Origin: Desulfobacterales bacterium
GTDB taxonomy: Bacteria; Desulfobacterota; Desulfobacteria; Desulfobacterales; C00003060
Assembly: GCA_013375395.1 (NCBI GenBank)
Contig: JABXJW010000004.1
Coordinates: forward strand, 1-53,148
Length of the DNA: 53,148 nucleotides
Reading direction: 5' to 3'
The number at the start of each line of letters is the position of its first letter. Position 1 is the stretch's first letter. A program made the position numbers and the translations under genes. Under the pieces are notes generated by a model. That model made no database searches. It saw only the letters and a list, made by a program, of their open reading frames with translations, and was not told the origin of the DNA. Below are positions 2,234 to 28,934 of this stretch, in pieces.

Positions 2234-2262
2234 TGAACCTAGACGTGGTTAATGAGTGTGAA

Positions 2263-5335: not shown

Positions 5336-5748
5336 CTCAGCTTAAATCGAATCGTTTGCGCCTCCAAAACTATATTATGAATAATATCCACCATATTTGC
5401 TTGAATCCGTTAGACCTTCCAATGCTTTCGGCAAATCTACAGAAACAAAAATAGAAGTATAGCTATGAGACTACTATCTATTGCCTATAGAAGCGGGTTT
5501 GCTTCTTATTCTCGAATAAAATGCTTTCGCACACCTCAAGTGTGGAAATTTATGGAAGAAAGTCAACGGCGGCATAATAAAAAGCGGGGAGATGGGAAAG
5601 GAGATGGGGTCACCCATTAAAGGGTAGGTCAAGAAAAATATGTGAGATTACAGATTACAATGGAAACGGTGATAATTTGAGCTAGTTGCAGCCTTAGAAT
5701 GGCATTTTGGGGGTCGGAAAGACCGGTTTAGGAGAATCATAGGTGCAA

Positions 5749-6160
5749 ATGGCAAGGGCGAAAGGACATTACATGCCTGGGCACATAATGGTACATAACT
5801 CACTGCTGCGACAACAGAGAATTCTTATTCAGATTTGGGAAGGACAGGCGACGATGGCTACAGTGGCTATTTGAGGCTAAGAAACGTTGTGGGCTGGTAA
5901 TATTGAACTACATGGTAACTTGGAATCATGTCCACCTAGTTGTCGTCGATGCCGGCGGGCGGGAAGTGATACCGAGGTCCATTCAGCTCATAGCGTGCCG
6001 GACGGGGCAGGAATACAAGCAAAGGAAGAGCCGCAAAGGTGCATTTTGGGAAGACCGCTATCATGCAACCGCAATAGAGAATCGTAGTCACTTATTACGG
6101 TGCCTTGTCTACATTGATTTGAAGATGCATTTAAAGAGAAAGATGTGCCCGGAGGGATAA
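5749..6160 (+). pseudogene. REP-associated tyrosine transposase (RAYT, Y1/IS200-like) remnant
   Basis: MARAKGHYMPGHI, then +1 frameshift near 5789, then WYITHCCDNREFLFRFGKDRRRWLQWLFEAKKRCGLVILNYMVTWNHVHLVVVD...GREVIPRSIQLIACRTGQEYKQRKSRKGAFWEDRYHATAIENRSHLLRCLVYIDLKM. HVH and downstream motifs typical of Y1_Tnp/RAYT; C-terminus missing. Confidence 0.82.
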
Positions 6161-6169
6161 CACTGACTG

Positions 6170-7567: not shown

Positions 7568-7574
7568 TCGGGGA

Positions 7575-8786: not shown

Positions 8787-8849
8787 GTCTTTAATCCTTA
8801 GTGCTGTCCTTAATATACTAAACACTTTGAGATTTATAGGGAAAGGTAA

Positions 8850-9893
8850 ATGAGTAAAAGAAAAAGTGTAAGGATTATGAAACGGATAGGATTACTATGT
8901 CTATTTTCTATTGTTTGTTTTGCTTCCATTATTCTATATAAAGAGATAAGTTACATACCCTCTCCGATTTTGATTCCGGACGGAATGGAGATTCAATCTA
9001 ATGTTTTAGGGCATTATTATCGTGACTATAGCCAAAGGTATTCAAATATAAGCAAAAAATACATTTTTGACAGAAATGGCGTGCCAACCTATCATCTCAA
9101 GGGAAATTGTTACTATCATCCGGTGCGTATAAGCCAGTATGCTCTCGGAGCCTTTGAATATTTCCTCGATACCGGAAATAACGATGCCAAGAACGCTTTT
9201 TTAACATGTGCAGAGTGGCTTACGAATAATTTGAGAAAACATGGAAAGTTCTTTTATTGGGAATATCGCTTCGGCCATACAGACGTTCCATGGTTTTCTG
9301 CTATGGCGCAGGGACAAGGGGCTTCCGTTCTTTTGAGGGCTTTTTCTGAAACACACGATAAAAAATACTTGCATTCAGCAAGGAAGGCCATAGAACCAAT
9401 CGCGCATGACATTTCCCAGGGGGGGGTCAGTGTCCTTAAGGAAAACACTTACCTTTTTCCTCAGGAATATTCTACAAATTCTCCATCTGAGGTTCTCAAC
9501 GGAGCTATAAGTGCCTGGTTTGGCGTTTATGACTATTATCGGGCCACTGGAGACTCTGAGGTAGAGCAATTCTGTGAAGGAATTATGAACACTTTCCTAT
9601 GGTGTATAGAGGAATACGATACCAGTTACTGGTCATTGTATTGTCGTTCGCCTAAATACCTAGCCTCTCCTTATTACAACTCTGTGCATGTATGCCAACT
9701 TAAAATCCTTTATTTGATTAGCGGTGAGAAAAAGTTTTTGAAATATTCAAAAAGGTTTGAAACCTATCAAAGTAACTGGATAAATAGAACCAAGTATGTC
9801 CTTGCAAACCACTTAAGGCAAATAAAGGAGCATGAGTTTAGCGATATCTATAAATTACCTTCATTCCTTAAAGAAACATTGTTTAGGAGATAG
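8850..9893 (+). CDS. D-glucuronyl C5-epimerase-like protein, membrane-anchored
   Basis: N-terminal TM; YHPVRISQYALGAFEYFLDTGN..., FFYWEYRFGHTDVPWFSAMAQGQGASVLLRAF, SEVLNGAISAWFGVYDYYRATGD, DTSYWSLYC resemble the Glce C-terminal domain. Confidence 0.72.
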   Translation: MSKRKSVRIMKRIGLLCLFSIVCFASIILYKEISYIPSPILIPDGMEIQSNVLGHYYRDYSQRYSNISKKYIFDRNGVPTYHLKGNCYYHPVRISQYALGAFEYFLDTGNNDAKNAFLTCAEWLTNNLRKHGKFFYWEYRFGHTDVPWFSAMAQGQGASVLLRAFSETHDKKYLHSARKAIEPIAHDISQGGVSVLKENTYLFPQEYSTNSPSEVLNGAISAWFGVYDYYRATGDSEVEQFCEGIMNTFLWCIEEYDTSYWSLYCRSPKYLASPYYNSVHVCQLKILYLISGEKKFLKYSKRFETYQSNWINRTKYVLANHLRQIKEHEFSDIYKLPSFLKETLFRR

Positions 9894-9895
9894 AA

Positions 9896-10240
9896 GTGGA
9901 ACTACGGCTTTGCCCACTATGGAAAAAACGAGAGAATGAGAGGCGTTTTTCGCAGAGAGGCTGCAATGTAGTTTTCTGCCGCAATTGTGAACTGTTTTTT
10001 ATACATCCCTATCCTGAAAGGGTGGATCATGTTCATAATCGTGTATCAGATGATGATTTTCAGGAAATTGAAATCCTTGATACCGAAAGACATTACCGCA
10101 GCGAAGTTCAATTCCAAAAGAGATACTTTACTTTAATTGATCAAGAGGTTAAAGGTGGAGCCTCTATCCTTGACGTCGGTTGTGGAACCGGCCATTTGCT
10201 TGAGCGGCTCAGCATATATCGTAGTATCCTTTTCCGATAG
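9896..10240 (+). pseudogene. 3'-truncated class I SAM methyltransferase with N-terminal Cys motifs
   Basis: 114 aa; VVFCRNCELFFIHPYP zinc-like motif followed by SILDVGCGTGHLLERL motif I, then stops shortly after motif I with no remaining Rossmann fold. Confidence 0.65.
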
Positions 10241-10398
10241 AGAAGTTTTCATACAAAACAAGATTCAATCAGCGACTTAAGCGGTTTTCCTATGATAAAC
10301 CTTGATCGCAAGAACTCTTGATTTCAGCCTCTATGGGAGGCCTTGGAAGCCCCACCAAAACCTCTTGTGATCAGCACAGTCTCACCGCCTTGCGGTTG

Positions 10399-10915
10399 AA
10401 AAGGAACGGCTATTGTGAAATTGATCGGCTACTGCGCTCACCTCGTCCGCTGTAGAAACCCAGATTAATTGACACGAAAATGAGCATTTTTTGTCGGAAT
10501 AAATTGATTGGTTCATGAAACTTCCACATTATTTTGAACCGATGAAACGGCTTTAATACCTATATTTACTAGGTTGCCCGCGTTGAAATTGGTTCATTGA
10601 AACTGAAACAGGTTTTAGTTGACTATGTTTTGAAAAGTCCAAACAATTTGAGAAGCTGCCAACACATTGTCTTAACAGAGGATTCGCACAAAGCTTTTCC
10701 GAGCCCGAGCGAGGGTCGTATTCCCTCACCGTCGCCAGTCTTGCAAAGAACAGGGAGCTTTAGATCGGTGAAGGCTGCGAAGCACCCGAAGGGCTTGGCC
10801 TTTACCGATCTAAAGCTATGTCCGTGCATGGTGACAGTCACTCAAATCGGTTCAAAATAATCATGAAAAAACAGTCCATTTAAACTGAGATCCTACACCG
10901 CTAACCGTTCCTTTT
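10399..10915. repeat. Nested inverted-repeat region (MITE-like), three concentric arm pairs
   Basis: AAAAGGAACGG 10399-10409 / CCGTTCCTTTT 10905-10915; ATTATTTTGAACCGAT 10528-10543 / ATCGGTTCAAAATAAT 10846-10861 (perfect 16 bp); GCTTTAGATCGGTGAAGGC 10757-10775 / GCCTTTACCGATCTAAAGC 10798-10816 (18/19). Confidence 0.7.
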
Positions 10916-10989
10916 TGGGGCGATCTGCAGCCACGACTTAGTCATTCCACACTGCTGATTTCAAGCGTATAATACAGGGACACAAAACC

Positions 10990-12123
10990 ATGAGGCATCA
11001 TATATGTATAATCACCTCTATACATCCTGATTTTGATGCGCGAATTACAAAGCAGGCAAGATCATTGGCTGGTTATGGATATAAAGTTGATCTTGTATGC
11101 CCCTGGAATTGCCATGATGCGAACACTCCAGGTACTAATTTCCTGACTTTCAAGCGAGCTAACAGACGACTAACGCGTTTTCTTAATTATTTCAGAATAG
11201 GGAAATGTCTGCATAAGAAGCCTTATGATCTCTATCATTTCCACGATATCGATATCTTGCCGCTATTTTGCTTGGTCAAGTTCTTAGCAAAAAAGCCCGT
11301 CATATATGACGTACATGAAAACTACCCAGAACAGATGCTCGTTAAATTCTGGGTTCCTAGATATTTGAGACCGATATTATCTTTTCTTGTTAAGCACGCT
11401 CAGCGCGTCTGTGCATATTATATTCGCAACTTGATCATAGTCGTTCCCTTGCAGGAAGCTGAATTCAAAGCCTCCAGGTACAAGAAGGTTATGGTTAGAA
11501 ACTTCCCGTCGACAGATCTCCTAAAAGGAAAACAGAATGATTATGAGAGCCGGCCCGATACTATTATATTCACAGGCAAACAGAATATTAATAATGGTTC
11601 CTTATTACTCCTAGAAATAGCAGAGAAAGTTCTAAAGAAACATCCTCGTGTCCAGTTCTTGGCTATCGATTTTTTTGCCGGTAATGATGCTCTAAAGAAG
11701 GATATGCTGGATTACATTAAGGACCATAGTCTTCAGAAGAAGTTTGCATTCCTGCCGTTCAGGAGAGCGCATGAAATCATGAAGTACTTGAATAAAGCAA
11801 CAATTGCCATATCGCCCAATCTCAAAGTACCACAACAAATTATGGGGATACATACTAAACTTTTTGAGTATATGACTGGCGGTTTGCCTATCGTTGCCAG
11901 TAAGCTGCCCCATCAAGCTGAAGTAATTAGTAAGGCTAACTGTGGGTTTTTAGCTGACCCGGATTCAATCGATGAGTTTGTAGACAGGATTTGCTTTTTG
12001 ATTTCCAACCGATCAGAGGCAAAACAAATGGGCGAAAACGGGGTCAGGGCATTTTTAGAACACTACTCATGGGAAATTGAGGTCACAAAACTCAGAAAAA
12101 TGTACGATGTATTGCTAAATTAA
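10990..12123 (+). CDS. Glycosyltransferase family 4
   Basis: ICIITSIHPDFDARITKQARSLAGYGYKVDLVCPW; KPVIYDVHENYPEQ; HTKLFEYMTGGLPIVASKLP. Confidence 0.85.
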   Translation: MRHHICIITSIHPDFDARITKQARSLAGYGYKVDLVCPWNCHDANTPGTNFLTFKRANRRLTRFLNYFRIGKCLHKKPYDLYHFHDIDILPLFCLVKFLAKKPVIYDVHENYPEQMLVKFWVPRYLRPILSFLVKHAQRVCAYYIRNLIIVVPLQEAEFKASRYKKVMVRNFPSTDLLKGKQNDYESRPDTIIFTGKQNINNGSLLLLEIAEKVLKKHPRVQFLAIDFFAGNDALKKDMLDYIKDHSLQKKFAFLPFRRAHEIMKYLNKATIAISPNLKVPQQIMGIHTKLFEYMTGGLPIVASKLPHQAEVISKANCGFLADPDSIDEFVDRICFLISNRSEAKQMGENGVRAFLEHYSWEIEVTKLRKMYDVLLN

Positions 12124-12431
12124 CTGTTGCTCGAAAGGTTAGTTGGTCCTTGTCCAGCCGTTGTAAAATAACGGTTTTGTACTGTGATAAGCCTCAAAAA
12201 CCATTTTTAGCTCGTTTTTGTAACAGTGGCCGCAGTAACTTGTCTTGACAACTGGATGACACGGCCGGTCTATTTGGTATCGATTATGTACTTTTGAGAT
12301 CGCTATGTTGCAGGGAACGAGACGTCTTCCCGACGGTTTCAAATGGCTAAGAGTCTGTTTAGCTCGTTTCTTGGATTGGTGATGTAAGCTGTGAACCGCA
12401 ATCTGCTATCTATATCAAACAGGCAAAAGAG

Positions 12432-13682
12432 ATGAATATCCTGATAGTTATGCTCTACTGGTATCCTTATGAAGGGCCTTTAATGCCTATATACGGCGCG
12501 ATCTTTAAGGACCTTATGGGAGAGGGGCGCAAGGTTACCATCGTTACATCGTTTCCCCACTACCGCAAAGGCCGGCCAGAGACATGGGACGAGTATCGGG
12601 GTAAACTTTTTGAAAAAACCGCATGGGAGGGAGCTACGCTAATACGTAGTTATGTATTTGCGCCTGTATTTAAGAATACCAAGTTTGCTTTATTTTACCG
12701 AGCCTTGAATTTTATCTCCTTTAACATTTCGTGCATCATTGCCGGCATATTTATGACCGGGAAAAAAGATCTTATTTTTGCGCCGTCCTCGCCGCCCCTG
12801 ACAAACGGTATATGTGCACATATTATTGGATGTTTCAAAAAGATTCCCTTCATTTATAACGTTCAGGATGTCTATCCGGATATGGCGGTCAAACTCGGGA
12901 TTTTAAACAATAAGGGAATTATCAGGATCTTAAGAGTAGTTGAGGATTTTGTGTACAAAAAAGCCAAAAGGGTACTGGTTATTTCAGAGGCTATGAAAAG
13001 GAATTTGCTGAAGAAAACTGTCGAAGAGGATAAAATAAAAATCATTTCTAATTTTATTGATACAGATTCTATTAAGCCCATGGCTAAGGAAAATGAATTT
13101 TCATTGAATTTTGGGTTAAATAGTAAGTTTGTTGTTATGTATGCCGGGAATATAGGTTTGCCTCATGGGTTAGAATTTGTTGTAGAAGCTGCCGAGATAC
13201 TTGCAAAACACAAGAATATCGTTTTCGCATTCGTTTCCCGCGGAGAATACAAGGATGAAATGATGGGTCTGTGTAAATCAAAAGGTTTAAAGAATGTTGT
13301 TTTTTCCCCGCAACAACCGGAATATAGTGTTCCTCAGATATGGGCCTCTGCGGATGTTTCACTGGTGACCTCAAGGAAAGGGTTATCGACAGACTCTGTA
13401 CCATCGAAAACGTTTGCAATCATGGCGAGTGGACGTCCTATTATTGCCATGATTGATGAAGGCAGTGAGGTTTGGAACTTAGTTGAAAAAGCTCAATGTG
13501 GAATATGCGTTGTACCGGAGCGTCCTGATCTGTTAGCAGATGCTATTTTGAGGCTTTGTAGCGGTGAAGCGGACAGAAAAGACATGGGTGAAAACGGTCG
13601 CAGGTTTGTAGTGAAGAATTTCTCTCGTAGCGTTACAAGCCAGAAGTACGAAGAGTTGTTATTGAATGTTCTTAATGAATAA
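12432..13682 (+). CDS. Glycosyltransferase family 4 (WcaI-like)
   Basis: MNILIVMLYWYPYEGPLMPIYGAIFKDLMGEGRKVTIVTSFPHY; PFIYNVQDVYPDMAVKLGIL; VPSKTFAIMASGRPIIAMID. Confidence 0.85.
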   Translation: MNILIVMLYWYPYEGPLMPIYGAIFKDLMGEGRKVTIVTSFPHYRKGRPETWDEYRGKLFEKTAWEGATLIRSYVFAPVFKNTKFALFYRALNFISFNISCIIAGIFMTGKKDLIFAPSSPPLTNGICAHIIGCFKKIPFIYNVQDVYPDMAVKLGILNNKGIIRILRVVEDFVYKKAKRVLVISEAMKRNLLKKTVEEDKIKIISNFIDTDSIKPMAKENEFSLNFGLNSKFVVMYAGNIGLPHGLEFVVEAAEILAKHKNIVFAFVSRGEYKDEMMGLCKSKGLKNVVFSPQQPEYSVPQIWASADVSLVTSRKGLSTDSVPSKTFAIMASGRPIIAMIDEGSEVWNLVEKAQCGICVVPERPDLLADAILRLCSGEADRKDMGENGRRFVVKNFSRSVTSQKYEELLLNVLNE

Positions 13683-13852
13683 CAAAGTCTATGCTGTGAT
13701 CCATTAAGCAGTGGCAAGTCGAAAACGAGCTGTGGATCTATTCGAGGAAAAGAAGATCTTAGAGCAAACCGCGTCGGTCTACAAGGCAGCAAGGGCTTTA
13801 TAGGGGCCTGGCCACCCTACTACAAATACGAAAGACATTCCTCAATTAGACA

Positions 13853-14072
13853 GGATCAACAGGATGAACAGGATAGTGTTTTCTGCCTTTCCAGCCTGCG
13901 GCCTCTCCGAGCTGTAAGGTCTACGAGCCGGAAGCCGTAGGGACCTACGCCCTCTCCGAGGCGTAGGCTTGTCCCTCTACGAGCCGGAGGCCAGAGGGAA
14001 GAAAGGCAGAAACAAGAAATCCTTTGAATCCTGTAGCGCGAAGCATCCCGCAGGGATAATCCTGTCGGACAA
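13853..14072. repeat. Composite intergenic repeat: ACAGGAT tandem plus opposing ATCCTGT ends flanking a TACGAGCCGGAAGCC-type palindromic block
   Basis: GACAGGATCAACAGGATGAACAGGAT at the left; AATCCTGT and ATAATCCTGTC at the right; between them CTACGAGCCGGAAGCCGTAGG and CTCTACGAGCCGGAGGCCAGAGGG. Confidence 0.6.
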
Positions 14073-14119
14073 AACGAACCATCTTCCTCTTTCAATCGAC
14101 CTGACAATCTCATCTGAGA

Positions 14120-15517
14120 ATGCATATGACTTCTTACGGCAGCCAAAAGAAGAAAATCCTTCTATTTGGTGATATCCTGTTGGTGTTTATTGCCTTTTTC
14201 CTGGCTGCGTCTATCAAAGCAATTGCTTTTGAGTCGTTTCACCTCGGGCTTGTTCTGACAAGAGTTGATCGGATGGTCATTATATGTATCTCACTCTATC
14301 CAATTACCTTTTATGTCTTTGACCTGTACAACCAAAACCGGTGGAAACATAACGTCAGGCTTCTCGTTTACATAAGCTCAGCCATTCTGGTTGCCTCTGG
14401 CACTGTTGCCTTCCTTTCTTACATCTTCATTCCCAATATCGTCATAGGTAGGACAATTCTATTCTTTCATATCATCTTTAGCATATTCTTAATATTTGCC
14501 TGGCGTAAAGTATTTGAACAGGTCTTTTTGAAAGGAAATTACAGCAAAGATAAAATTCTGCTTATTGGAAATAGCTCCGTTGTAAAAGATATTGAATCCA
14601 TGGTTCGAAGAAGTGTTGCCACAGGCTCTGATCGTCTCGCTGTAATCAGGGACTATTCTGAAAATCCTGGAACGTTGTCTATGAATGGCTCGATACCTGA
14701 GAAAAACCTCTCCGACCTGGTCATCAATTCCGGTTTTAGCGCGGTGGTCGTGGCAGAGCGCCTCAAGCATTTTCCCATACTCAGAAAACAGCTTTTGGAC
14801 CTAAGATTTTCCGGCGTTGCTATCTACGATGCTCCTTATTTTTATGAGGCAGTGACTGGCAAGGTGGCAGTAAATCATGTCAAGGATTCATGGTTTTTAT
14901 TCCGTAATCAGGGCGAAGCGTTCAATCCTTTTATCTATCGGAAGATAAAGAAGATTGTTGATAAATCTCTAGCTCTAGCCGGGATAATTTTTTCATTTCC
15001 ATTGATGCTGCTGAGTGCCTTGGGCATCAAACTTACGTCGAAGGGACCGGTGTTCTTCAAACAGGAACGCCTGGGGCAAAATGAGCGGCCCTTTACTTTG
15101 TTGAAATTCCGCACAATGGTTGACAATGCGGAAAAGGGCACTGGCCCGACGTGGTCCAGTGAAAACGATCCAAGAATCACAAAAATTGGTAGGATCTTGC
15201 GGAAAACCCATCTTGATGAGCTGCCCCAAGTGTTTAGTGTGCTAAACGGGCATATGAGTTTTGTGGGGCCTCGTCCTATCCGGAGACATTTTGCTGACAT
15301 ACTGGCCAAAGACGTCCCCTACTATCGACTCCGGTTTGTCGTGAAACCCGGACTTACAGGCTGGGCTCAGGTGCGGGGAGATTACGCCGGTTCAGAAGAA
15401 GGCCAGGCCGAGAAGCTTGAGTATGACCTGTATTATATACAGAACCAGTCTATTCTGTTTGACCTTTTCATTGTGCTGAAGACGGTGCAGACGGTGTTGT
15501 TTCGGAGGGGCCAGTAA
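14120..15517 (+). CDS. Exopolysaccharide polyprenyl glycosylphosphotransferase (undecaprenyl-phosphate sugar phosphotransferase)
   Basis: N-terminal TM helices; C-terminal GPVFFKQERLGQNERPFTLLKFRTMVDNAEKGTGPTWSSENDPRITKIGRILRKTHLDELPQVFSVLNGHMSFVGPRPIRRHF...PGLTGWAQVRGDYAGSEEGQAEKLEYDLYYI. Confidence 0.93.
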   Translation: MHMTSYGSQKKKILLFGDILLVFIAFFLAASIKAIAFESFHLGLVLTRVDRMVIICISLYPITFYVFDLYNQNRWKHNVRLLVYISSAILVASGTVAFLSYIFIPNIVIGRTILFFHIIFSIFLIFAWRKVFEQVFLKGNYSKDKILLIGNSSVVKDIESMVRRSVATGSDRLAVIRDYSENPGTLSMNGSIPEKNLSDLVINSGFSAVVVAERLKHFPILRKQLLDLRFSGVAIYDAPYFYEAVTGKVAVNHVKDSWFLFRNQGEAFNPFIYRKIKKIVDKSLALAGIIFSFPLMLLSALGIKLTSKGPVFFKQERLGQNERPFTLLKFRTMVDNAEKGTGPTWSSENDPRITKIGRILRKTHLDELPQVFSVLNGHMSFVGPRPIRRHFADILAKDVPYYRLRFVVKPGLTGWAQVRGDYAGSEEGQAEKLEYDLYYIQNQSILFDLFIVLKTVQTVLFRRGQ

Positions 15518-15847: not shown

Positions 15848-16738
15848 TTGCACAGAAATGCAAACGATAACATGCTCCCCGCAATAAAAGTCGAACAGAA
15901 AATTGAAATAGGCGGCGTCTGTTGTTCAATAGGCTTTCTGGACGGGTTCTTTAAGAAGGAATTTGCTTCGATTTTTTCAGACTACAGGCGGTGGGGGTTT
16001 AGCTCTGAAGGAAACCCTGAAATCGGTATTATGGTTAAAGAGGGCCGCGTTGAAGCCCCCCGCAGATTGAAGGAGTATGTATTCTACCATATAGTAGACT
16101 ATGATTCCGTTTATGCGACCCTCGCCTTTGATACCAGGAGCTTTGAAGGAGAAATCGGTTTTTCCATCAAACGAGGTGACCGATTCACGCCAGTTAGAAT
16201 CGTAGAACTCACTGAAACGTTTATATTCAACGCCTATCTTTTCTACTTCCATCTCAATGATATCGGAACATTCGTTCATTCCTGCGGCATCGTGGACGGA
16301 GAAAACGGTTATCTATTTGCAGGACCGGGTGGAGAGGGCAAGTCCACAATTGCCTCATTGTCTTTGCCGAGAACTATCTTGTGTGATGACGTAATCCTTT
16401 TGCGAAAGAACGATAAGGGCAGGAGACTGGTCTTTGGCACACCTTTCTCCGGGGACCATGGTAGCGTCAATGGCGGAGCGGAATGTAAAGGAATATATTT
16501 TATTCGGAAAAGTTCTATCAATGAATTGGTTGCCACGAGCCTGATCGATGGCACTGTTGAACTGATGAGAGAAGGGGTTATGGGGGGCTTTATGTCGATT
16601 GACGGAATTCAACGCATATATCCCCAATCCAGACTGTTTGACTTCCTGCTTGACCTGCTGTCCGGGGTGCCATGTTTCAGAATGAAATTCAAGAAGGACG
16701 ATTCCTTTTGGAAGGTGATAAATGAACATGAAGACTAA
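15848..16738 (+). CDS. HPr kinase/phosphorylase-like P-loop protein of the PqqD-associated type
   Basis: FVHSCGIVDGENGYLFAGPGGEGKSTIASLSLPRTILCDDVILLRK: P-loop GPGGEGKST and CDD motif as in HprK-like proteins. Confidence 0.8.
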   Translation: MHRNANDNMLPAIKVEQKIEIGGVCCSIGFLDGFFKKEFASIFSDYRRWGFSSEGNPEIGIMVKEGRVEAPRRLKEYVFYHIVDYDSVYATLAFDTRSFEGEIGFSIKRGDRFTPVRIVELTETFIFNAYLFYFHLNDIGTFVHSCGIVDGENGYLFAGPGGEGKSTIASLSLPRTILCDDVILLRKNDKGRRLVFGTPFSGDHGSVNGGAECKGIYFIRKSSINELVATSLIDGTVELMREGVMGGFMSIDGIQRIYPQSRLFDFLLDLLSGVPCFRMKFKKDDSFWKVINEHED

Positions 16739-16991
16739 CCCAAAAAGGAAGAGCGATCTTGTCTGGCGTGAGGTGGGCGGGGAGATAGCCATAATTTCTC
16801 CTGACAACAAACACCTGCATACGCTAAATGACGTTGGGTCAAGAATCTGGCAGTTGCTCGACGGAGAAAATGATCTATCTGCCATAGCGGACATAATCTC
16901 TGCCGAATATGAGGAAGAAGAAGAGGTGGTGGAACTGGATTTGGCAGAATACGTCGAGAACCTCAGACGGCTGAAGCTCCTGGAGGGCTGA
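16722..16991 (+). CDS. PqqD family peptide-recognition (RRE-type) protein
   Basis: 89 aa; SDLVWREVGGEIAIISPDNKHLHTLNDVGSRIWQLLDGENDLSAIADIISAEYEEEEEVVELDLAEYVENLRRLKLLE is a PqqD-like pattern. Overlaps the 3' end of the HprK-like gene. Confidence 0.9.
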   Translation: MNMKTNPKRKSDLVWREVGGEIAIISPDNKHLHTLNDVGSRIWQLLDGENDLSAIADIISAEYEEEEEVVELDLAEYVENLRRLKLLEG

Positions 16992-16992
16992 T

Positions 16993-18054
16993 ATGGAAAG
17001 CTGTGAATATCTGCCCAGGCCACGGGATACCTATGAGGCGTTTATGGTAGAGAAGTATTGGAGGGTGAATCGGCCCAACAGCATCCACTTTGAACTCACG
17101 AATCGATGTAATTTAGAGTGTATCCATTGCCTTTTCACAAAAGAAAGCACAGATGAGCTGTCAACGCACGAGACATATGAAATTCTTCTTCAACTAAAGA
17201 AATTGGGCGTTTTCTATTTATCATTATCTGGAGGTGAAATCTTTATTCGAAAGGATATAGGACAGATTCTCGATTTTCTGCTGGAAAACAGATTCCTTTT
17301 GAACATCTATACTAACGGAACGCTATTGACCAACACGCTCGTAGATAAAATTGCAATCCTGCAACCCTTGAGAGTAGAAATATCTGTTTACGGAGCGACA
17401 GCCGGGATTCATGATCGGATTACCACGGTTGCCGGGTCTTTTGAAAAAACGATCGGCAGCATAAAGGCGCTTAGAGATGCTGGTGTGTCGGTCCTTTTCA
17501 AAGGCTTCCTTTTGAAGGATAACTTTCACCAGCGCTGGCAGATGATTGATTTAGCCAACGAAATACGAGTGTTATATGCCTTTGATTTTAACGTGATTCC
17601 CAGGTTAAATGGTAATATGAGCAATTTATCAGTCGGAATATCGATAGACCAGGTTAAGAGGATTCATGAAGAAGTAGCAAAAGAAGGCCTTATCTTGAGA
17701 AACCACGTTAAGATCAAAGTCAGAGATTCTCAGCTGCCTCAGGGAGGACGGGTGGTTTGCAATGCTGGGCGGATTAATGGCTGTATAGGACCTAACGGAG
17801 ATGTTTTTCCCTGCCCTGTGCTGCGGCTGACCATGGGAAATCTTATAGAGAAAACTTTTGAGGAAATCTGGAAGACCAATGAGATAGACGATATCAGGGA
17901 CATGACGCTGGATGATCTAAAGATATGCTCTGTTTGTCCGGATCTTGAGTATTGCAACCGTTGTCCGGGCGTTGCCTATCTGGAGACAGGAGATTATTTG
18001 GGACCGGCACCTCTTTCCGTATGTAGCAAGACCAAAGCCTTACCAGCCAGCTGA
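16993..18054 (+). CDS. Radical SAM/SPASM domain protein (putative peptide maturase)
   Basis: ELTNRCNLECIHCLF (CxxxCxxC); LSLSGGEIFIRKDI; SPASM-like CNAGRINGCIGPNGDVFPCPVLRLTMGNLIEKTFEEIW...CSVCPDLEYCNRCPG. Start adjoins the pqqD stop. Confidence 0.93.
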   Translation: MESCEYLPRPRDTYEAFMVEKYWRVNRPNSIHFELTNRCNLECIHCLFTKESTDELSTHETYEILLQLKKLGVFYLSLSGGEIFIRKDIGQILDFLLENRFLLNIYTNGTLLTNTLVDKIAILQPLRVEISVYGATAGIHDRITTVAGSFEKTIGSIKALRDAGVSVLFKGFLLKDNFHQRWQMIDLANEIRVLYAFDFNVIPRLNGNMSNLSVGISIDQVKRIHEEVAKEGLILRNHVKIKVRDSQLPQGGRVVCNAGRINGCIGPNGDVFPCPVLRLTMGNLIEKTFEEIWKTNEIDDIRDMTLDDLKICSVCPDLEYCNRCPGVAYLETGDYLGPAPLSVCSKTKALPAS

Positions 18055-18070
18055 AAAGGGGGTGATGCGT

Positions 18071-18253
18071 ATGAATGACAAGAAATATGAGAAACCTGCT
18101 ATTGTTACAGTGGAGGTTCCTGAGAGAACCGCTTATGCCTGTAACTTGGGAAATGAAACCTGCCCTCATGCTTCAGGCGTGGTGAATCACGCCATATGCA
18201 GCGACAATGGTGGTCAAGGTAGTGGTCTCTGGGGCATTGGGGTGTGCGACTGA
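18071..18253 (+). CDS. Candidate RiPP precursor peptide (Cys/Gly-rich, KYEKPAIV leader-like N-terminus)
   Basis: MNDKKYEKPAIVTVEVPERTAYACNLGNETCPHASGVVNHAICSDNGGQGSGLWGIGVCD; GGGGG Shine-Dalgarno-like tract just upstream; begins 17 nt after the radical SAM stop. ATG at 18065 is an alternative start. Confidence 0.7.
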   Translation: MNDKKYEKPAIVTVEVPERTAYACNLGNETCPHASGVVNHAICSDNGGQGSGLWGIGVCD

Positions 18254-18378: not shown

Positions 18379-19032
18379 ATGGGAAGAACAGGAAGGTTAT
18401 TCATCGTTTTGTTATTTTTTACTTTAACGGTAGCCTTGACAAACTCTGCACTGGCTAAGCTGATCCCAGACCCTGTCGGTGATACGTTTGGGGATGGCTT
18501 AATTGATATTATCAATATGGACGTCCAGTTTGACAGTGACAACCTGTACATTAGTGCGAACTTCGCATCTCAGGTGTCCGAACCGGGGACAGGAAATCCT
18601 TACGACCTTTATGGATTCATCGATCTGGATGTCGACCAGGATCCGAGCACCGGTGGTCCGGCCTGGAGTGACCTCCTCTTTGGAGCGTCTACCGATATTG
18701 GGTCGGATTACTTTATTATGTTCGACTTTACGGCGCCTCCCGATGGGTTGGTTCAGTTATATGCTTTTGGCACCCCTACTAGTCCTTTTATTGACGATGT
18801 GCCGATCAGCTTCTATACAAGGTCCTTTTCGGCAACGGTTCCTTTGGGTGTCATCGGCGATGATGGCTGGGTGAACTATGGCGCTGTATTCGGAACTATT
18901 AATGGCCCTAATGATCTTGTCCCGAACGACGGCTATGCTACGAGTCAAGCCGTTCCAGAGCCGGCCACTATGCTGTTGCTCGGCAGTGGCCTGATCGGGC
19001 TTGCCGGCTTGCGGAGGAGCTTTAACAGGTAA
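18379..19032 (+). CDS. PEP-CTERM sorting domain protein (exosortase substrate)
   Basis: N-terminal signal peptide ending ALA; C-terminal VPEPATMLLLGSGLIGLAGLRRSFNR (PEP motif, TM helix, Arg-rich tail). Strong GGAGGTG RBS. Confidence 0.92.
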   Translation: MGRTGRLFIVLLFFTLTVALTNSALAKLIPDPVGDTFGDGLIDIINMDVQFDSDNLYISANFASQVSEPGTGNPYDLYGFIDLDVDQDPSTGGPAWSDLLFGASTDIGSDYFIMFDFTAPPDGLVQLYAFGTPTSPFIDDVPISFYTRSFSATVPLGVIGDDGWVNYGAVFGTINGPNDLVPNDGYATSQAVPEPATMLLLGSGLIGLAGLRRSFNR

Positions 19033-19038
19033 ATATGT

Positions 19039-19662
19039 GTGCGGAAACGGCAACGTTCCGCAAGGAATATGCTAGCGGCATTTCTTACACCTGGGCGTGA
19101 GGAGGAAGTATTGCGGACGGAAAAGGCCAATGTGATCATTGAAATGCAGGAGGAGCTCTTTCGGAAACAGGGCGAGGGTTGGTTCCGGATCGTTTCCGGC
19201 AGTATGCGCCCACTCATAGACGCTCAGGACAGGGTACTTGCCAAACACATGGAGGCAGATGAAGTTGAGCCGGGAGATATTATCCTTTTCAAAAACAGTC
19301 ATGTTTTGGTCACCCATCGCGTCATAAGGATTTTGAGACGAAACGGGAAAACCATGATTCTTCAAAGGGGTGATGCAGGCGGCAGCGCAAGCACAGTGGC
19401 ACCTGAATCTGTCATGGGCAAAGTGGTGGCCGTTGAAAAGGATGGAAGATTGTTAAGGCTTGACTGCGGGTGGGCTAGAGTTGTAAACGCCTTTTTAGGA
19501 TTCCAGAATTGCTGCTCTTATGGACTTCATTTAAGGATTGCCGCCATTAGGGGGCGGCTAGGAGATAAGCCAGGCTTTCAGTATTTAAGAAATCTATATC
19601 GAATCTTGAGGAAACCTTTTGCTTTTCTAAATCGAGCAATAGCAAGGACCCTTCTGACATAA
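19039..19662 (+). CDS. S26-type signal peptidase-like protein (S24/S26 superfamily)
   Basis: WFRIVSGSMRPLIDAQDRVLAKHMEADEVEPGDIILFKNSHVLVTHRVIRILRRNGKTMILQRGDAG: SGSMRP serine box and VTHRV box, resembling the Ser-His (SipW/Sec11-like) branch. Confidence 0.82.
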   Translation: MRKRQRSARNMLAAFLTPGREEEVLRTEKANVIIEMQEELFRKQGEGWFRIVSGSMRPLIDAQDRVLAKHMEADEVEPGDIILFKNSHVLVTHRVIRILRRNGKTMILQRGDAGGSASTVAPESVMGKVVAVEKDGRLLRLDCGWARVVNAFLGFQNCCSYGLHLRIAAIRGRLGDKPGFQYLRNLYRILRKPFAFLNRAIARTLLT

Positions 19663-22852: not shown

Positions 22853-23137
22853 GACCCGTTGCCCGTGCTTCCCCCACCGTCAGCGCCCTGGATAAGTTGC
22901 CCTGTTTCCTTGAGCACGCCTCACAAATCAAAGCGCATCGCCAATCAAAGACTCACGTCAAACTTCTGACGTTTTGTTGCCTCGCCTAAACACGGGTTTC
23001 TTTCAAAACCATAAAAAAGGTTGTTTCAATGTGACCTATGTCATTGTAATATTGTCAATATTGCCCGAGAAAACCATTGGCATGAAACCTGCTTAATCCT
23101 ATTGAGATTTCAAGGAAACAAGAAAGGAGGTCACTGC

Positions 23138-25696
23138 TTGACTGGTATCTATGAGATAAAGGATCATTACTTTGGCATTCTGAAAAGACATGCGACAAAT
23201 TTTCTTGGCCTTGGCATAACAGTCCTCTTTTTGGCACTTTGCTTGTTTCGCTTGGAGATTCTCGACAGGATGGATCTCAAGTTCTACGACGTAATGATGA
23301 ATCTAAGGGCTGATGCTAAAAGTCCAAGCAAAGTCGTCCTGGTGGACATAGACAATGATTCCATAGACAAGCTCGGCAGTTGGCCTTGGCCTCGTTCCCT
23401 TATAGCCAAGGGCATCAGAAAGATAAACTCCGGCCGCCCCAGAGTCATCGGGCTCAATTTGATCTTGAGTGAACCCGAGGATCGCGCAGGTTTGAGGGCT
23501 GTTACGGCCTTGAAGGAGTTTTTCGTCCAAAACCTTCTGGAGCAAACAGGCACTCAAGGGCAGTTGCTCCGCCTGCGCATGCTTAATGCCGAGGCGAGGT
23601 TGGACAGCGACAAAGAACTGGCCGAATCGATCATGGATTCAGGCAAAGTTGTGCTGCCGATTTTGGTCAAGGAGTCGGAGGTGGAGAACGGGGCAACAGA
23701 ATCGGGTGCTGTTCTAATTGATCAGTCGATCAGGAACATCGGACACTTCGAAGGCTCGAAATGCCGCAAAGCCGGCAAGATACTCCTGCCCCTTGGTGCA
23801 TTTTTAGAAGGCTCAAGCGGCATAGGTCACATCAGCCCCGTCTGCGACATGGACGGAAAGGTCAGGCGCGAGCGGCTCTTGTATGAGCACAACGGGCTGT
23901 GCATCCCTTCCTTCACTTTAAGATTGGCGGCCCTCTATCTAAATGTCTCGCCGGAAAATATACTGGCCGATTTGGGCTCGGTCATTTACATGGGCTCCCT
24001 TGAGATTCCCGTTGACTCGGACTCTGAAGTTTTGGTCGGCTTTAAAGGCCCTGCCGGCTCTTTTGAGAGTTACTCCTACTTCGATGTCATAAACAATGAC
24101 GTTTCGTTGAGTGTGTTCAAAGACAAGCTTGTTTTGCTGAGCGCTTCTGCTGCTCGAACTATGGAGCCGCTCAACACGCCCACCGATTCGGCCATGTCCG
24201 TGGGAGAGTTCTCAGCCAACAGCATATGGGCAATACTGAACAGACAATTTGTCAAACAGCCTTATTGGGGCTTCGACGCAGAGCTTGCGATGATACTCGT
24301 TTTGGGGCTGGTGATTACATTTGTTTTGCCAAGATTGAAGATCATACTTGCGGGCATTACCTTTTTGGTCTTCTTTATGTTGCTTATAGAGGGTTCAGTC
24401 TACTTGTTTGTATCAAATGGCCTCTGGGTCCGGGTGACTTACCCCTTCTTTCAGCTAGTCTGTGGCTATGTCGGGCTGATAAGCATCAGGCACTTTGTAC
24501 CCGAGAGCAGTGAAGAGGATCTGCATTATGTGCCCGCCGAGACAGACGTGGCGACCGGACGCTCTTTGCAGGTCAAGGGAATGCCTGGGCTGGCTTTGGA
24601 TAAATTCCGCACGGCGCCTCTGGACGACAATATGAAAGATATCCTTTACAACCTTGCCTTGGATTACGAGAGAAAGAGTCTGTTCGCCAAGGCCGCGGCC
24701 GTCTATGAGCATATAGAGGCGCACGACGGCAAGTTCAAAGACGTTCGCGAAAGAAAAAAGAAGTTGGTGCAGGCCGACGAGACCATGGTGTTAGGCGACG
24801 GTGACGCCCCTCAGGCGAGCGGCAGCGAAACAGTTTTCACTCTGGGCAGGTACAATGTGATCAGGCAACTGAGCAAAGGCGCTATGGGCACGGTTTTTCT
24901 CGGCCAGGACCCTCGCATCAAGCGAACCACCGCGATCAAGGCCTTCCGGTTTACCGATGACTTCGGGCCGGAAGAGGCCGGGAAGATGAAAGAGAACTTC
25001 TTCTTTGAGGCCAAGAGCGCAGGCACACTGTCGCATCCAAACATAGTCACCATCTACGATGCGGGCGAAGAGCAGGATCTGGCCTACATTGCCATGGAGT
25101 ATTTGGAAGGTGAGAGCCTACAAGAATATACGAAAAAGGAAAACCTGTTGCCCATGCGCAAGGTCATAGAGTATGTGGCCGCCGTCGCAGACGCCCTGGA
25201 TTACGCACACGCAAAAGGCATCGTCCACCGGGATGTTAAGCCTGCCAACATAATGCTTGCCAATACCGGCGTTATAAAGATCACCGATTTCGGCATAGCC
25301 AGGATCACAACTGCCTCCCAGACTCGGACGGGTGTGGTGAAGGGCACCCCGCATTATATGTCCCCGGAACAGATTTCAGGCGAAAAGGTGGATGGAAGGT
25401 CGGACATCTTTTCATTAGGTGTAGTGCTATTTGAGCTTTTGGCCGGAGAGCGCCCTTTCTCCGGCGATAACCTGGCCACGCTTATGCATCAAATAGTGAA
25501 CGTGCCCCACACGGACCCGAAAAAAATGAGCCCCAGAATAGTCAAACCCCTTGGGACCATAATAAACAAGGCCCTTGAGAAGGACCGGGAGAAACGCTAC
25601 CAGAAGGCATCCCAATTGGCTGCACATTTGAGAGAACTCAACAAAGCGATAAATGCCGTTATCGCCAAGAGGAGGACGAAAAGAGCGGCGCAGTAG
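23138..25696 (+). CDS. CHASE2 sensor domain Ser/Thr protein kinase, transmembrane
   Basis: CHASE2-like KFYDVMMNLRADAKSPSKVVLVDIDNDSIDKLGSWPWPRSLIA; kinase YNVIRQLSKGAMGTVFLGQD...GIVHRDVKPANIMLANTGVIKITDFGIAR...GTPHYMSPEQ. TTG start at 23138 chosen because AAAGGAGG lies just upstream. Confidence 0.92.
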   Translation: MTGIYEIKDHYFGILKRHATNFLGLGITVLFLALCLFRLEILDRMDLKFYDVMMNLRADAKSPSKVVLVDIDNDSIDKLGSWPWPRSLIAKGIRKINSGRPRVIGLNLILSEPEDRAGLRAVTALKEFFVQNLLEQTGTQGQLLRLRMLNAEARLDSDKELAESIMDSGKVVLPILVKESEVENGATESGAVLIDQSIRNIGHFEGSKCRKAGKILLPLGAFLEGSSGIGHISPVCDMDGKVRRERLLYEHNGLCIPSFTLRLAALYLNVSPENILADLGSVIYMGSLEIPVDSDSEVLVGFKGPAGSFESYSYFDVINNDVSLSVFKDKLVLLSASAARTMEPLNTPTDSAMSVGEFSANSIWAILNRQFVKQPYWGFDAELAMILVLGLVITFVLPRLKIILAGITFLVFFMLLIEGSVYLFVSNGLWVRVTYPFFQLVCGYVGLISIRHFVPESSEEDLHYVPAETDVATGRSLQVKGMPGLALDKFRTAPLDDNMKDILYNLALDYERKSLFAKAAAVYEHIEAHDGKFKDVRERKKKLVQADETMVLGDGDAPQASGSETVFTLGRYNVIRQLSKGAMGTVFLGQDPRIKRTTAIKAFRFTDDFGPEEAGKMKENFFFEAKSAGTLSHPNIVTIYDAGEEQDLAYIAMEYLEGESLQEYTKKENLLPMRKVIEYVAAVADALDYAHAKGIVHRDVKPANIMLANTGVIKITDFGIARITTASQTRTGVVKGTPHYMSPEQISGEKVDGRSDIFSLGVVLFELLAGERPFSGDNLATLMHQIVNVPHTDPKKMSPRIVKPLGTIINKALEKDREKRYQKASQLAAHLRELNKAINAVIAKRRTKRAAQ

Positions 25697-25740
25697 CTGT
25701 CAGGATTGGAACTTAGGGGCTTTGCCCTCTCCGCGCTGTA

Positions 25741-25792
25741 GGCTTCCGGTTTGTAGACCCTACGGCTCGGAAAGCTCTACGAGCCGGAAGCC
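25741..25792. repeat. Dispersed palindromic repeat, copy 2 (CCCTACGGCTCGGAAAGCTCTACGAGCCGGAAGCC family)
   Basis: GGCTTCCGG 25741-25749 / CCGGAAGCC 25784-25792; the 35-mer at 25758-25792 recurs at 32973-33007 with one mismatch. Confidence 0.82.
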
Positions 25793-25818
25793 GATTGGAG
25801 TAGTGGAGTGTTGGAGTA

Positions 25819-26625
25819 ATGGTGATCGTTCAATCAGCAGGCATTACCGACGCAGGTAGAAAGAGGAAGAGCAACGAAGATGCCATGCTGCTTGATGACG
25901 ACGGGGGGCTTTATGTTGTGGCAGACGGCGTAGGAGGCCACCGGGCGGGGGAGGTGGCCAGCAGGCTTGTTGTTGATACTATTCGGGGCCATATGGACAG
26001 TTTCAAGGGCAGCGACGCCGAAGAGTCTGCCGATTTCGACGGGACCCTCTCTATTGAGGCCAACCGGCTTCTTTCCTCAATCCAGGTGGCTAACCGGGTA
26101 GTGCACCAGGCATCCAACAGCAAGGAATCATTGCGCGGTATGGGCTCCACCGTGTCGGCGGTCTATTTCGCTGCCGACACCTTCGTAGCGGCCAACGTAG
26201 GCGACAGTCCAATCTATCTGGTCCGTGATGGGACCATAGAACTGCTGTGCGAACTCCACACGGTGATGGCAGAGCAGGCTGCTGTCGATCCCCACGGGAT
26301 CGACAGGCTGGGGAGAAATTACAGACATATGCTCACCAGGGCCATAGGGGTTGAGGAAACGGTAAAGGCCTGTATCAGTGAGATTCAGTTGTTCAAGGGC
26401 GATATCATAGTTATCGGTTCCGACGGCTTAAGCGATAAGGTCCCGTCTGAAGAGATATTGGATGTGGTCAATAAAGATAGGCCTGATAATGCCTGCCGGT
26501 CGCTTGTGGATCTGGCCAACGAACGTGGTGGAGATGACAATGCAACCGTTATTGTGCTGAAGGTAAAGGCGCTCAAACAAGAAACAGGAGGGATTCTCGG
26601 ATTGATCTCTCGGATCATCTCTTAG
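25819..26625 (+). CDS. PP2C-family protein phosphatase
   Basis: AGITDAGRKRKSNEDAMLLDDDGGLYVVADGVGGHRAGEVASR; DIIVIGSDGLSDKVPSEEI; GGDDNATVIVLKV. Confidence 0.94.
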   Translation: MVIVQSAGITDAGRKRKSNEDAMLLDDDGGLYVVADGVGGHRAGEVASRLVVDTIRGHMDSFKGSDAEESADFDGTLSIEANRLLSSIQVANRVVHQASNSKESLRGMGSTVSAVYFAADTFVAANVGDSPIYLVRDGTIELLCELHTVMAEQAAVDPHGIDRLGRNYRHMLTRAIGVEETVKACISEIQLFKGDIIVIGSDGLSDKVPSEEILDVVNKDRPDNACRSLVDLANERGGDDNATVIVLKVKALKQETGGILGLISRIIS

Positions 26626-26636
26626 AATCCTTTTTG

Positions 26637-26684
26637 TTATGTTTTTAATCCCCCGTCCGCTGCGGCGGGGGATTAAAAACATAA
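26637..26684. repeat. Perfect 19-bp-arm hairpin between the PP2C and FHA genes
   Basis: TTATGTTTTTAATCCCCCG (26637-26655) / CGGGGGATTAAAAACATAA (26666-26684); spacer tccgctgcgg. Confidence 0.85.
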
Positions 26685-26702
26685 TAAAGAAAGGGGCTTG
26701 CG

Positions 26703-27410
26703 ATGCCGACTTTGATGCTTAAGTTCCAGGGAAAGACCATTAAAGAGTATCGCCTTGAAAAAGGAAAGTCTCTGAGCATCGGCCGGAAAGACGACAATGA
26801 TGTGGTTATCGAGAACCTTGCTGTATCCGGACACCATGCCAAGATAGACTCTGTGGATGACGGTTTTTTGCTGACCGATCTGAAAAGCAAAAACGGCTCC
26901 TTTGTCAATGAAAATCTTGTCACTTCTCACTGGCTCAAACACGGGGACGTCATGACCATCGGCAAGCATAGTGTTGTTTTTGCGTACGAGGAGGGTGAAT
27001 CTCGACTCCACGAGGCTCCGGATGCGATGGACCAGACAATGGTAATGGATACCGGCAAGTATCGAGACATGCTGGCCAAGAGTCTGCCAAATGGGGCCAA
27101 ACAGGTGCTGGAAGGTGAGCCCGTCGGTATTTTGTCATTTTTGTCCGGCGGCCGGGGAGAGATGGGGATTACCAAAAAGTTGGCCAAAATCGGTAAAGAT
27201 TCTTCCTCCGACATTGTGGTGGACGGTTTCATGGTGGGGCCGACGGCAGCCACCGTAAGCAAGAGGCCAAACGGATATTATTTGAGCTATGTTGGGGGAA
27301 TGGCCAAACCAAAAGTCAACGGTGAAACCGTGAAAGAATCAGTCAAACTTGAAGAGTTTGATGTAATAGAGATAGGCTCGGTGAAACTACAGTTCATCTA
27401 TAAGGACTAG
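26703..27410 (+). CDS. FHA domain protein (two FHA-like repeats)
   Basis: KSLSIGRKDDNDVVIENLAVSGHHAKIDSVDDGFLLTDLKSKNGSFVNE; second FHA-like half KIGKDSSSDIVVDGFMVGPTAATVSKRPNGYYLSYVGGMAKPKVNGETV. Confidence 0.9.
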   Translation: MPTLMLKFQGKTIKEYRLEKGKSLSIGRKDDNDVVIENLAVSGHHAKIDSVDDGFLLTDLKSKNGSFVNENLVTSHWLKHGDVMTIGKHSVVFAYEEGESRLHEAPDAMDQTMVMDTGKYRDMLAKSLPNGAKQVLEGEPVGILSFLSGGRGEMGITKKLAKIGKDSSSDIVVDGFMVGPTAATVSKRPNGYYLSYVGGMAKPKVNGETVKESVKLEEFDVIEIGSVKLQFIYKD

Positions 27411-27479
27411 CAAAACCTCCCTTCCCTGAAGGAAGCGGGTTCTGCTGCGGCGCGCTTCGTACAAGGATGAGCGAGCAGG

Positions 27480-28934
27480 TCAAAAGGCCTTCTTTGACAA
27501 CAAGATGTTGCTGCGTGTCAGTCGCTGGATCAGGGTGTTGGAAAAGATCTTGTAGAAACTAAGTTGTGTGCCCGCGGACGTCTGGTCTATGAGCGAGGCG
27601 TTGATCTTCATCAAAATGGTATCGCGGAGCGTTTCAATAGTGGCGGTCCGTGTGGTCTTGGCCAAGTACGCCATTTCACCGAAGCAGTCACCCTGTTCCA
27701 ACACGGCCAATTGCGCCCGCTGCTTTTTGACAATAACCTTGCCGACAACAATAATGTAGAAACAGTCTTCTATCTGCCCTTCGGCAATTACGGTCTCACC
27801 GGCTTCGTGCTTGAGCCACTGAGTGGCCTTGAGGACCTCTGTCAGTTCAGTTGAAGCAAAATCTTTGAAGAAACCTATTTTCTTAATGGCATTGAGTTTC
27901 TCCGCAGAATCGATTTCTTCATCCAAGAACCTAAGACTATCGAAAGATGCAGACAGTTCCGAGGCTAATTGCGAGGCAGTCCGGTAACGTTTTGCCAAGT
28001 CCTTTTCCAAAGCCCGCGTGACTATGCGCTCCAGAGATTCGGGAACATCACGCCGGTGCTTCTTCAAGGACTCGGGGTTTTCATTGGTTATCTTGAAAAA
28101 TGTGGCCACGTCCGAGTCGGCCTCAAAGGGTTTGGTTCCTGTCAGGAGTTCATACATCACCGCGCCCAAGGAGAAGAAGTCGGACTGCGATGTCTGCGGT
28201 TCGTTGCGAATTTGTTCGGGTGAAGTGTATGAGACAGAACCGGCCAAACTTCCCTCTGGACGACGGCCAGAGGCGCCCTCCACCGCAGCAATGCCGAAGT
28301 CGGAAATCTTGGCGCCGCCTTGCGCGGAAATCATGATGTTTGTCGGTTTGATGTCGCGGTGGATGACTCCGTTTTGGTGAGCGTAGCCAAGGGCCTTGGT
28401 GCACTGGAAGATGATTTTCACCACCTTTTCGAGCGGCAGCAGGTTTTCCTTCCGGCAGTACTTTTTCAAGGTGGATCCGTCGACATATTCCATGACCAGG
28501 TAGCTCTGGTTGTCTTCCACCGCAGCATCGTACACCGATACGATGTGAGGATGCGTTAATTTACCCGCAACCTTGGCTTCGTGGAAGAATTTTTCCTGAA
28601 ACCGCTCAAGCCCCCGTGGGTCCACAGGAGGAGAGGTCAAGGTGGTTTTGATGGCCACAAGGCGATCAATAAAAGGGTCCTGGGCCAGATAGACCACACC
28701 CATGCCCCCGCTCCCCAGTTTCCGGACAACTTGGTATCTGCCTATTTTATGAGGTATTTCTGGATACTTCACGAAATCTATCCTAATCCGGGCAAGCCCG
28801 CCCGACATTCGCCTGACCTGCCTGCCAGTGCCAGGCATTGGCAGGCGGGAGCGCAGCCGATGGCGGACGGGCCGGAACCAAAAACCGGCTATGAGGCGAA
28901 TGGCAAACCCCTTAGCCCTTTGCCGGTCACTCAC
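27480..28934 (-). CDS. Ser/Thr protein kinase with C-terminal cyclic nucleotide-binding domain
   Basis: IGRYQVVRKLGSGGMGVVYLAQD...GVIHRDIKPTNIMISAQGGAKISDFGIAAV; C-terminal cNMP-like EAGETVIAEGQIEDCFYIIVVGKVIV...LEQGDCFGEMAYLAKTTRTATIET. The true start is probably downstream of the ORF start (e.g. MSGGLARIRIDF). Confidence 0.9.
   Translation of the reverse strand: MSDRQRAKGFAIRLIAGFWFRPVRHRLRSRLPMPGTGRQVRRMSGGLARIRIDFVKYPEIPHKIGRYQVVRKLGSGGMGVVYLAQDPFIDRLVAIKTTLTSPPVDPRGLERFQEKFFHEAKVAGKLTHPHIVSVYDAAVEDNQSYLVMEYVDGSTLKKYCRKENLLPLEKVVKIIFQCTKALGYAHQNGVIHRDIKPTNIMISAQGGAKISDFGIAAVEGASGRRPEGSLAGSVSYTSPEQIRNEPQTSQSDFFSLGAVMYELLTGTKPFEADSDVATFFKITNENPESLKKHRRDVPESLERIVTRALEKDLAKRYRTASQLASELSASFDSLRFLDEEIDSAEKLNAIKKIGFFKDFASTELTEVLKATQWLKHEAGETVIAEGQIEDCFYIIVVGKVIVKKQRAQLAVLEQGDCFGEMAYLAKTTRTATIETLRDTILMKINASLIDQTSAGTQLSFYKIFSNTLIQRLTRSNILLSKKAF

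Follow-up and report, generated by a model that had tools for sequence, protein, structure and literature searches.

The linear polyphosphorylated peptides (LPP) are the closest described system to the locus reported here. Their gene set comprises a SpI-like peptidase (LppS), an HprK-like kinase (LppK), an RRE (LppB), an NTP transferase (LppN) and an MsbA-like protein (LppD), and LppK, LppS and LppB have been tested biochemically (Popov et al. 2026, PMC13381572). The precursors follow the consensus YxxPxVLxHQxIxFETxxS, are phosphorylated at Ser3, where neither S3T nor S3Y is accepted, and are cut after FET with the help of the RRE; the clusters are often found in capsule loci and have been called restricted to Bacillota (PMC13381572). 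Counted along this consensus, the phosphorylated Ser stands 18 residues after the leader Tyr (Tyr+18). The terms 'radical SAM', 'rSAM' and 'SPASM' occur 0 times in the text of that paper (PMC13381572).

Related kinases act on phosphorylated lasso peptides. For BsfK, the lasso precursor kinase motif (His, P-loop Gly/Lys, Asp) and dependence on an RRE have been reported, and the precursor BsfA, whose last residue is Asp, carries its phosphate on Ser3 of the core (PMC10368454). In the paeninodin type, PadeK acts on a conserved C-terminal Ser, to which an NTP transferase can add a hexose (PMC9266682), while in PMC4289311 HPr kinase is mentioned only in lasso clusters. In the open-access literature searched, no paper was found that brings together HPr kinase (HprK), radical SAM and a precursor peptide, and no mention of SynChlorMet was found.

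The 60-residue ORF and its operon

The window, meaning the whole stretch of 53,148 nt that was analysed, includes an operon in which all genes lie on the forward strand in the order kinase (K), PqqD (D), radical SAM (R), peptide (A), PEP-CTERM protein and S26 peptidase (S). The HprK/PEPCK-fold kinase (15872..16738, +), predicted from profile, motif and fold matches to act on a precursor peptide, starts at an ATG at 15872; a TTG further upstream, at 15848, belongs to the same ORF. It is overlapped by 17 nt by the gene for an 89 aa PqqD-type RRE (16722..16991, +; PF05402, 59.3 bits against a cut-off of 23.4), the sole PqqD match in its genome. The next gene encodes a 353 aa radical SAM/SPASM peptide maturase (16993..18054, +), recognised by PF04055 and PF13186 above cut-off, by alignment and by its relatedness to SkfB and PqqE, and 16 nt behind it starts the 60 aa ORF (18071..18253, +), here called the window peptide. 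A 217 aa secreted PEP-CTERM protein (18379..19032, +; PF07589, 30.7 bits) separates the peptide from a soluble S26-type peptidase of the SEC11/SipW (Ser-His-Asp) type (19039..19662, +; TIGR02228, 48 bits, and a match to the SipW model), which is the predicted leader peptidase. The kinase and the peptidase, neither of which an earlier note on this DNA mentions, are the defining components of the system. It is uncertain whether the PEP-CTERM protein is part of the system; other secreted proteins are often found beside the cluster in relatives. No dedicated exporter was found in the window operon, and NTP_transf_5 (PF14907) is absent from the window, the only copy in the genome being on another contig.

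Upstream of the operon lie glycosyltransferases and an EPS-type sugar transferase at 14120-15517 (TIGR03025, 367 bits), which places the cluster at the edge of an exopolysaccharide locus. This locus covers window positions 1-15517 and encodes glycosyltransferases, flippase-like and O-antigen-ligase-like proteins and an EpsB_2/WcaJ-type sugar transferase. Together with the PEP-CTERM protein it suggests an exosortase-type surface system. Positions 23021-28934 hold a signalling module, read from the sequence, with a CHASE2-like/Ser-Thr kinase, a PP2C-like phosphatase, an FHA-like protein and a second kinase with a cNMP-binding-like C-terminus.

The window peptide is read from the ATG at 18071 to the stop at 18251-18253, exactly the frame written in the earlier note. 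The Shine-Dalgarno-like AAAAGGGGG (18054..18062, +), read from the sequence, ends 8 nt before this ATG and overlaps the stop of the radical SAM gene; an alternative in-frame ATG at 18065 is too near AAAAGGGGG. The four Cys (C24, C31, C43 and C59), the Gly/Asn-rich C-terminal half and a ribosome-binding site, as described in that note, are all present, and the last residue is D60, so that the peptide, like BsfA, ends in Asp and has no C-terminal Ser. Its putative RRE-binding motif is Y6-E-K-P9-A-I11, and the K-x-Y-x-K-P-x-[IV] leader is real, its family form being [KR]-x-Y-x-x-P-x-[FIV].

The ORF is single-copy in its own genome. It is small and found no family in Pfam or NCBIfam, against which its relatives were likewise searched, as would suit a frame open by chance or a small protein of some other kind. 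However, a profile built without the window peptide finds it with E=1.4e-6 as the sole significant match among 667 window ORFs (runner-up 0.68), it follows the radical SAM and PqqD genes in a conserved gene order, and peptides with a fixed Y-x17-C spacing occur in the equivalent clusters of dozens of genomes. These observations leave practically no room for a chance ORF, and the window peptide is almost certainly the ribosomal precursor of a peptide that is modified by enzymes encoded next to it. Direct BLASTP against the peptide of a related locus (L010) gave no significance, and kinship is thus visible only through profiles and spacing.

The precursor family in other genomes

One scan of species-representative genomes with a five-sequence radical SAM alignment yielded 80 loci. 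Both the radical SAM and the kinase gene are found in 61 of these, the window included, most also having PqqD and many the S26 peptidase. The order A-S-K-D-R occurs in 18 loci, mostly of Acidobacteriota, and K-D-R-A-S in 10, including the window. The family extends over Acidobacteriota, Chloroflexota, Omnitrophota, Lentisphaerota, Pseudomonadota, archaea and others, and most of the kinase/radical SAM relatives (about 60, from many phyla) encode the same kind of peptide, a spread that points to a sizeable unexplored source of modified peptides. NTP_transf_5 is present in 27 fetched loci, sometimes fused to the S26 domain, and some relatives' loci include an ABC-2 type permease, not MsbA.

When 396 genomes of the phylum were screened with the precursor profile, matches turned up at 10 places in 9 genomes, each of them next to a K, R or S gene: full sets in G000, G437, G454 and G566, the radical SAM in G314 and G351, the kinase in G454 (second copy) and G670, and the S26 peptidase in G303 and G375. 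The G437 precursor, which lies outside the first locus, was predicted and then found (E=2.5e-18). A radical SAM search at 1e-60 in 293 genomes of the window's own order returned only the window enzyme itself, and a plasmid collection only radical SAM proteins of <60% identity.

The family pattern consists of [KR]-x-Y-x-x-P-x-[FIV], Ala at Y+15, Cys at Y+18 and a second Cys. Among small, same-strand, in-cluster ORFs with YxxPx[ILVF] in the 61 kinase and radical SAM loci, Cys stands at Y+18 in 29 of 37, against counts of 0-4 at each remaining offset between 12 and 25, and the YxxP ORFs in the clusters align without gaps from the motif to this Cys. ORFs with the same motif elsewhere in these loci, which may include precursors beyond the distance limit, have Cys at +18 in 7 of 58. 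In the set assembled by profile the figure is 46/50 (Y6/C24 of the window peptide included); it is partly circular, since the profile that brought in many of the homologues itself contains the Cys, and 29/37 is the less biased count. Ala is found at Y+15 in 40/45, Glu at Y+12 in 35/45 and Ala at Y+17 in 14/45. Most members have only two core Cys, the second mostly 8-12 residues after the first.

In the window peptide Y6, P9, E18, A21 and C24 all stand at family positions, A21 being the near-invariant Ala and C24 and C31 the invariant Cys pair. The window member is nevertheless an outlier: its radical SAM enzyme sits on a long branch, and the peptide has no C-terminal Ser, four Cys in a core that is longer than usual, and a shorter C-C spacing (6). 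The claim of the earlier note that the peptide is a modification substrate is strongly supported: the Cys is conserved in homologues, and radical SAM, PqqD, kinase and peptidase genes adjoin them. Homologues devoid of conserved Cys or of radical SAM/PqqD partners, which that note considered incompatible with its claim, are not what was found. That the window peptide is an RRE-guided radical SAM substrate is well supported.

Predicted maturation enzymes compared with those of known systems

The radical SAM enzyme has a CX3CX2C core and seven SPASM cysteines. The closest solved relatives of the five-member profile are SkfB, a sactipeptide maturase and the best match, and PqqE; 5wgg, another solved RiPP maturase, is also matched. 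In NCBIfam all scores are below cut-off, the highest being AhbD (138 bits) and MftC (128 bits), and NirJ2 likewise scores above the curated maturase models StsB (84 bits, cut-off 625), AlbA (78, cut-off 850) and SkfB (67, cut-off 300). No relative is more than 38-40% identical to the window enzyme, which occupies a long branch; its nearest row in the tree is a Methanophagales archaeon (38% identity, long branch, weak support). The closest radical SAM relative (L013) is accompanied by a peptide without Cys at Y+18. A defence library gave a weak generic viperin match only.

A radical SAM/SPASM enzyme and an RRE acting with a Cys-containing precursor are also found in sactipeptide and ranthipeptide systems (SkfA/SkfB, SCIFF/CteB), although the window family has few Cys and a thioether is here putative. 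To our knowledge, an HprK-like kinase and a SpI-like peptidase are not part of such systems. In view of the scores below the AlbA, SkfB and StsB cut-offs, the locus was not filed under these classes; the possible sactipeptide or ranthipeptide thioether links proposed in the earlier note are not established, even with SkfB as the nearest solved enzyme, while its call of a modification substrate is well supported. SynChlorMet (ScmC/D/E/F) likewise combines an HprK-like ScmC with PqqD and radical SAM/SPASM genes, but has two radical SAM genes where the window has one. Membership was rejected, as the window kinase, PqqD and radical SAM proteins match ScmC, ScmD and ScmE/ScmF far below cut-off (19/125, 26/100 and 114/400 bits, score/cut-off). 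PQQ and mycofactocin share a PqqD-like RRE and a PqqE/MftC-like radical SAM enzyme next to a small precursor; these were rejected too, the precursor being unlike PqqA or MftA and the enzyme scoring 85/381 bits with PqqE and 128/265 bits with MftC.

The kinase shows weak matches to the ScmC and HprK-rel-B profiles and has the P-loop GPGGEGKST. Its AlphaFold model (pLDDT 81) matches PEPCK and HprK/P structures in the PDB with modest TM-scores, and the His, Gly, Lys, Thr and Asp of the HprK/lasso-kinase motif are kept in 39-41 of 41 relatives. Of the 43 peptides encoded in kinase loci, 37 have Ser as their last residue, against a background of 7.7%, which suggests, by analogy with paeninodin, that this Ser may be phosphorylated. 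The family as a whole is likely to be phosphorylated, the window member, whose last residue is Asp, less surely so. A second kinase-precursor pair in two genomes of one genus (L109, L110) has no full-length radical SAM gene nearby and lies beside a Wzz/GNVR exopolysaccharide gene.

The peptidase profile matches human SEC11 (SEC11C, 8e-13), and S55, H93 and D112 are kept in 33, 36 and 36 of 36 relatives. Unlike in membrane signal peptidases, no segment of transmembrane hydrophobicity is found in any relative, and removal of the leader by the S26 peptidase is likely. At position -3 to the Y+15 site, Thr, Ala or Val occurs in 40/45, a signal-peptidase-like pattern, the window peptide having Arg there. 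As LPP are cut after Tyr+15, the offset of the near-invariant Ala, A21 is the candidate cleavage point, and the leader, placed at about residues 1-24 in the earlier note, more likely ends at A21-A23. A FET-like cleavage site at residue 19 is possible by comparison with LPP.

With LPP the window system thus shares a soluble SpI-like Ser-His-Asp peptidase, an HprK-like kinase with an intact motif, a discrete RRE with a YxxPx leader motif (seen in 50 precursors), a conserved residue at Tyr+18, the polysaccharide-locus setting and, in many relatives, an NTP transferase. It differs in the radical SAM/SPASM enzyme, in a shift of the FET-like motif by two and in spanning many phyla, in contrast to the Bacillota given for LPP (PMC13381572). 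Because Tyr+18 is Cys and not the acceptor Ser in nearly all precursors, the window peptide among them, and the window operon has neither an NTP transferase nor an MsbA-like exporter, it was not filed as LPP. With the phosphorylated lasso peptides (PadeK, PsmK/PsmN of pseudomycoidin, BsfK) it has in common the YxxPx leader, the discrete RRE, a kinase of the same motif, the conserved C-terminal Ser of the paeninodin type and the NTP transferase in relatives, but it includes a radical SAM enzyme, and no lasso cyclase or B2 peptidase is among the operon proteins. A lasso peptide was also rejected because PF13471 has just one match in the genome, a partial one located on a different contig.

Proposed pathway, alternatives and related arrangements

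The window ORF is best explained, at a probability of roughly 0.8, as a RiPP precursor matured by the surrounding genes in an LPP- or phospho-lasso-like pathway to which a radical SAM enzyme has been added. The PqqD-type protein would bind the leader at Y6-x-x-P9-x-I11, and the bound leader would serve as a ruler that puts the Tyr+18 residue, C24, into the radical SAM/SPASM active site. The enzyme would then make a change involving Cys, the simplest candidate being a thioether within C24...C31. The kinase would phosphorylate Ser/Thr, at the C-terminal Ser in most relatives and at an internal Ser/Thr in the window member, and the soluble SEC11/SipW-type peptidase would cut the leader, probably after A21 (or A23), giving a core of ~37-39 residues with C24 near its N-terminus. 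The ORF, the operon, the homologous family with its fixed spacing, the catalytic residues and the gene co-occurrence support this reading, and from them we infer every chemical step. Against it speak the outlying features of the window member, the PEP-CTERM gene that interrupts its operon, the lack of NTP_transf_5 in the window and of any dedicated exporter found in the operon, and the L013 peptide with no Cys at Y+18.

A thioether at or near C24 is the simplest guess, and the core with two invariant Cys, the full SPASM set and the nearest solved structures (SkfB, with 5wgg) would also suit a bona fide sactipeptide or ranthipeptide, with several S-to-carbon thioethers in the core and the kinase and peptidase as accessories. 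This is a tenable though minority view, given that two core Cys are few for these classes, that AhbD, MftC and NirJ2 outscore the maturase models, and that the surroundings of the Cys show no conserved acceptor residue. Somewhat less credit is due to chemistry other than a thioether (C-C cross-link, decarboxylation, epimerisation or a PQQ-/mycofactocin-like reaction), in which C24 would be an anchor or pair with C31 in a disulfide: SPASM enzymes are chemically diverse, AhbD and MftC give the top scores, and a distance of about 7-13 between the two Cys is compatible with a disulfide, but no other residue of the family is placed as strictly as the Cys, a hint that the Cys is itself acted on, and no aromatic, Glu or Val-Tyr pattern like that of PqqA/MftA is conserved. 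It is most improbable that the kinase works at Tyr+18 as LppK does, with C24 or a residue beside it accepting the phosphoryl group and the C-terminal Ser conserved for other reasons. The shared offset (PMC13381572) and the missing C-terminal Ser of the window peptide fit this, yet in every known case cited the group phosphorylated by an HprK-type kinase is a hydroxyl, LPP do not accept even Thr or Tyr in place of Ser, and Ser prevails at the C-terminus in kinase loci.

The family to which the window peptide belongs is apparently undescribed and multi-phylum, and adds a radical SAM enzyme to the LPP toolkit. It supplies a precursor family for a radical SAM/PqqD/HprK-like gene set that the nearest NCBIfam models cover weakly, and links two RiPP worlds described apart, that of radical SAM enzymes and that of HprK/SpI phosphopeptides. 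Rather more tentatively, with the odds a little under even, it may form a RiPP class of its own, spread over many phyla, whose single RRE-bound leader guides both the radical SAM enzyme, at the Tyr+18 Cys, and the kinase, at a usually C-terminal Ser possibly then glycosylated by the NTP transferase. If so, Tyr+18 would be a modification ruler common to LPP, one leader geometry being reused for two unrelated chemistries; that leader length fixes the modified residue at Tyr+18 is a testable claim.

Several arrangements related to this family were also observed. In Bacillota L058, L059, L064, L066 and L073 the PqqD-like domain is inside the radical SAM ORF, and small peptides with Y/F-x-x-P leaders and several Cys are found by L058, L064 and L073. 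In Coatesbacteria, L063:5120-5656 encodes a tandem pair of precursors, each with four core Cys, which in this count come closest to the window peptide. In 10 loci with precursors of the LExxAxxC type (L014, L017, L022, L030, L033, L065, L069, L076, L077 and L091), the cluster is adjoined by a secreted C25 (gingipain-type) peptidase, possibly a partner, target or processing enzyme. A large secreted-looking family, two members of which were scanned and gave no Pfam match, is encoded near the precursor gene in 14 loci, mostly of Acidobacteriota (L039:725-2881 and 13 others). Clusters of Nitrospira, Omnitrophota and Elusimicrobia (L071, L074, L078, L080, L082, L088, L089) contain two to four radical SAM genes each. 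The peptides of Nitrospira L082 and L089, and also those of L070 and L083, have their Cys at Tyr+20 (QAILxAC or xAVLxxC) instead of Tyr+18, and constitute a sister family with a different ruler.
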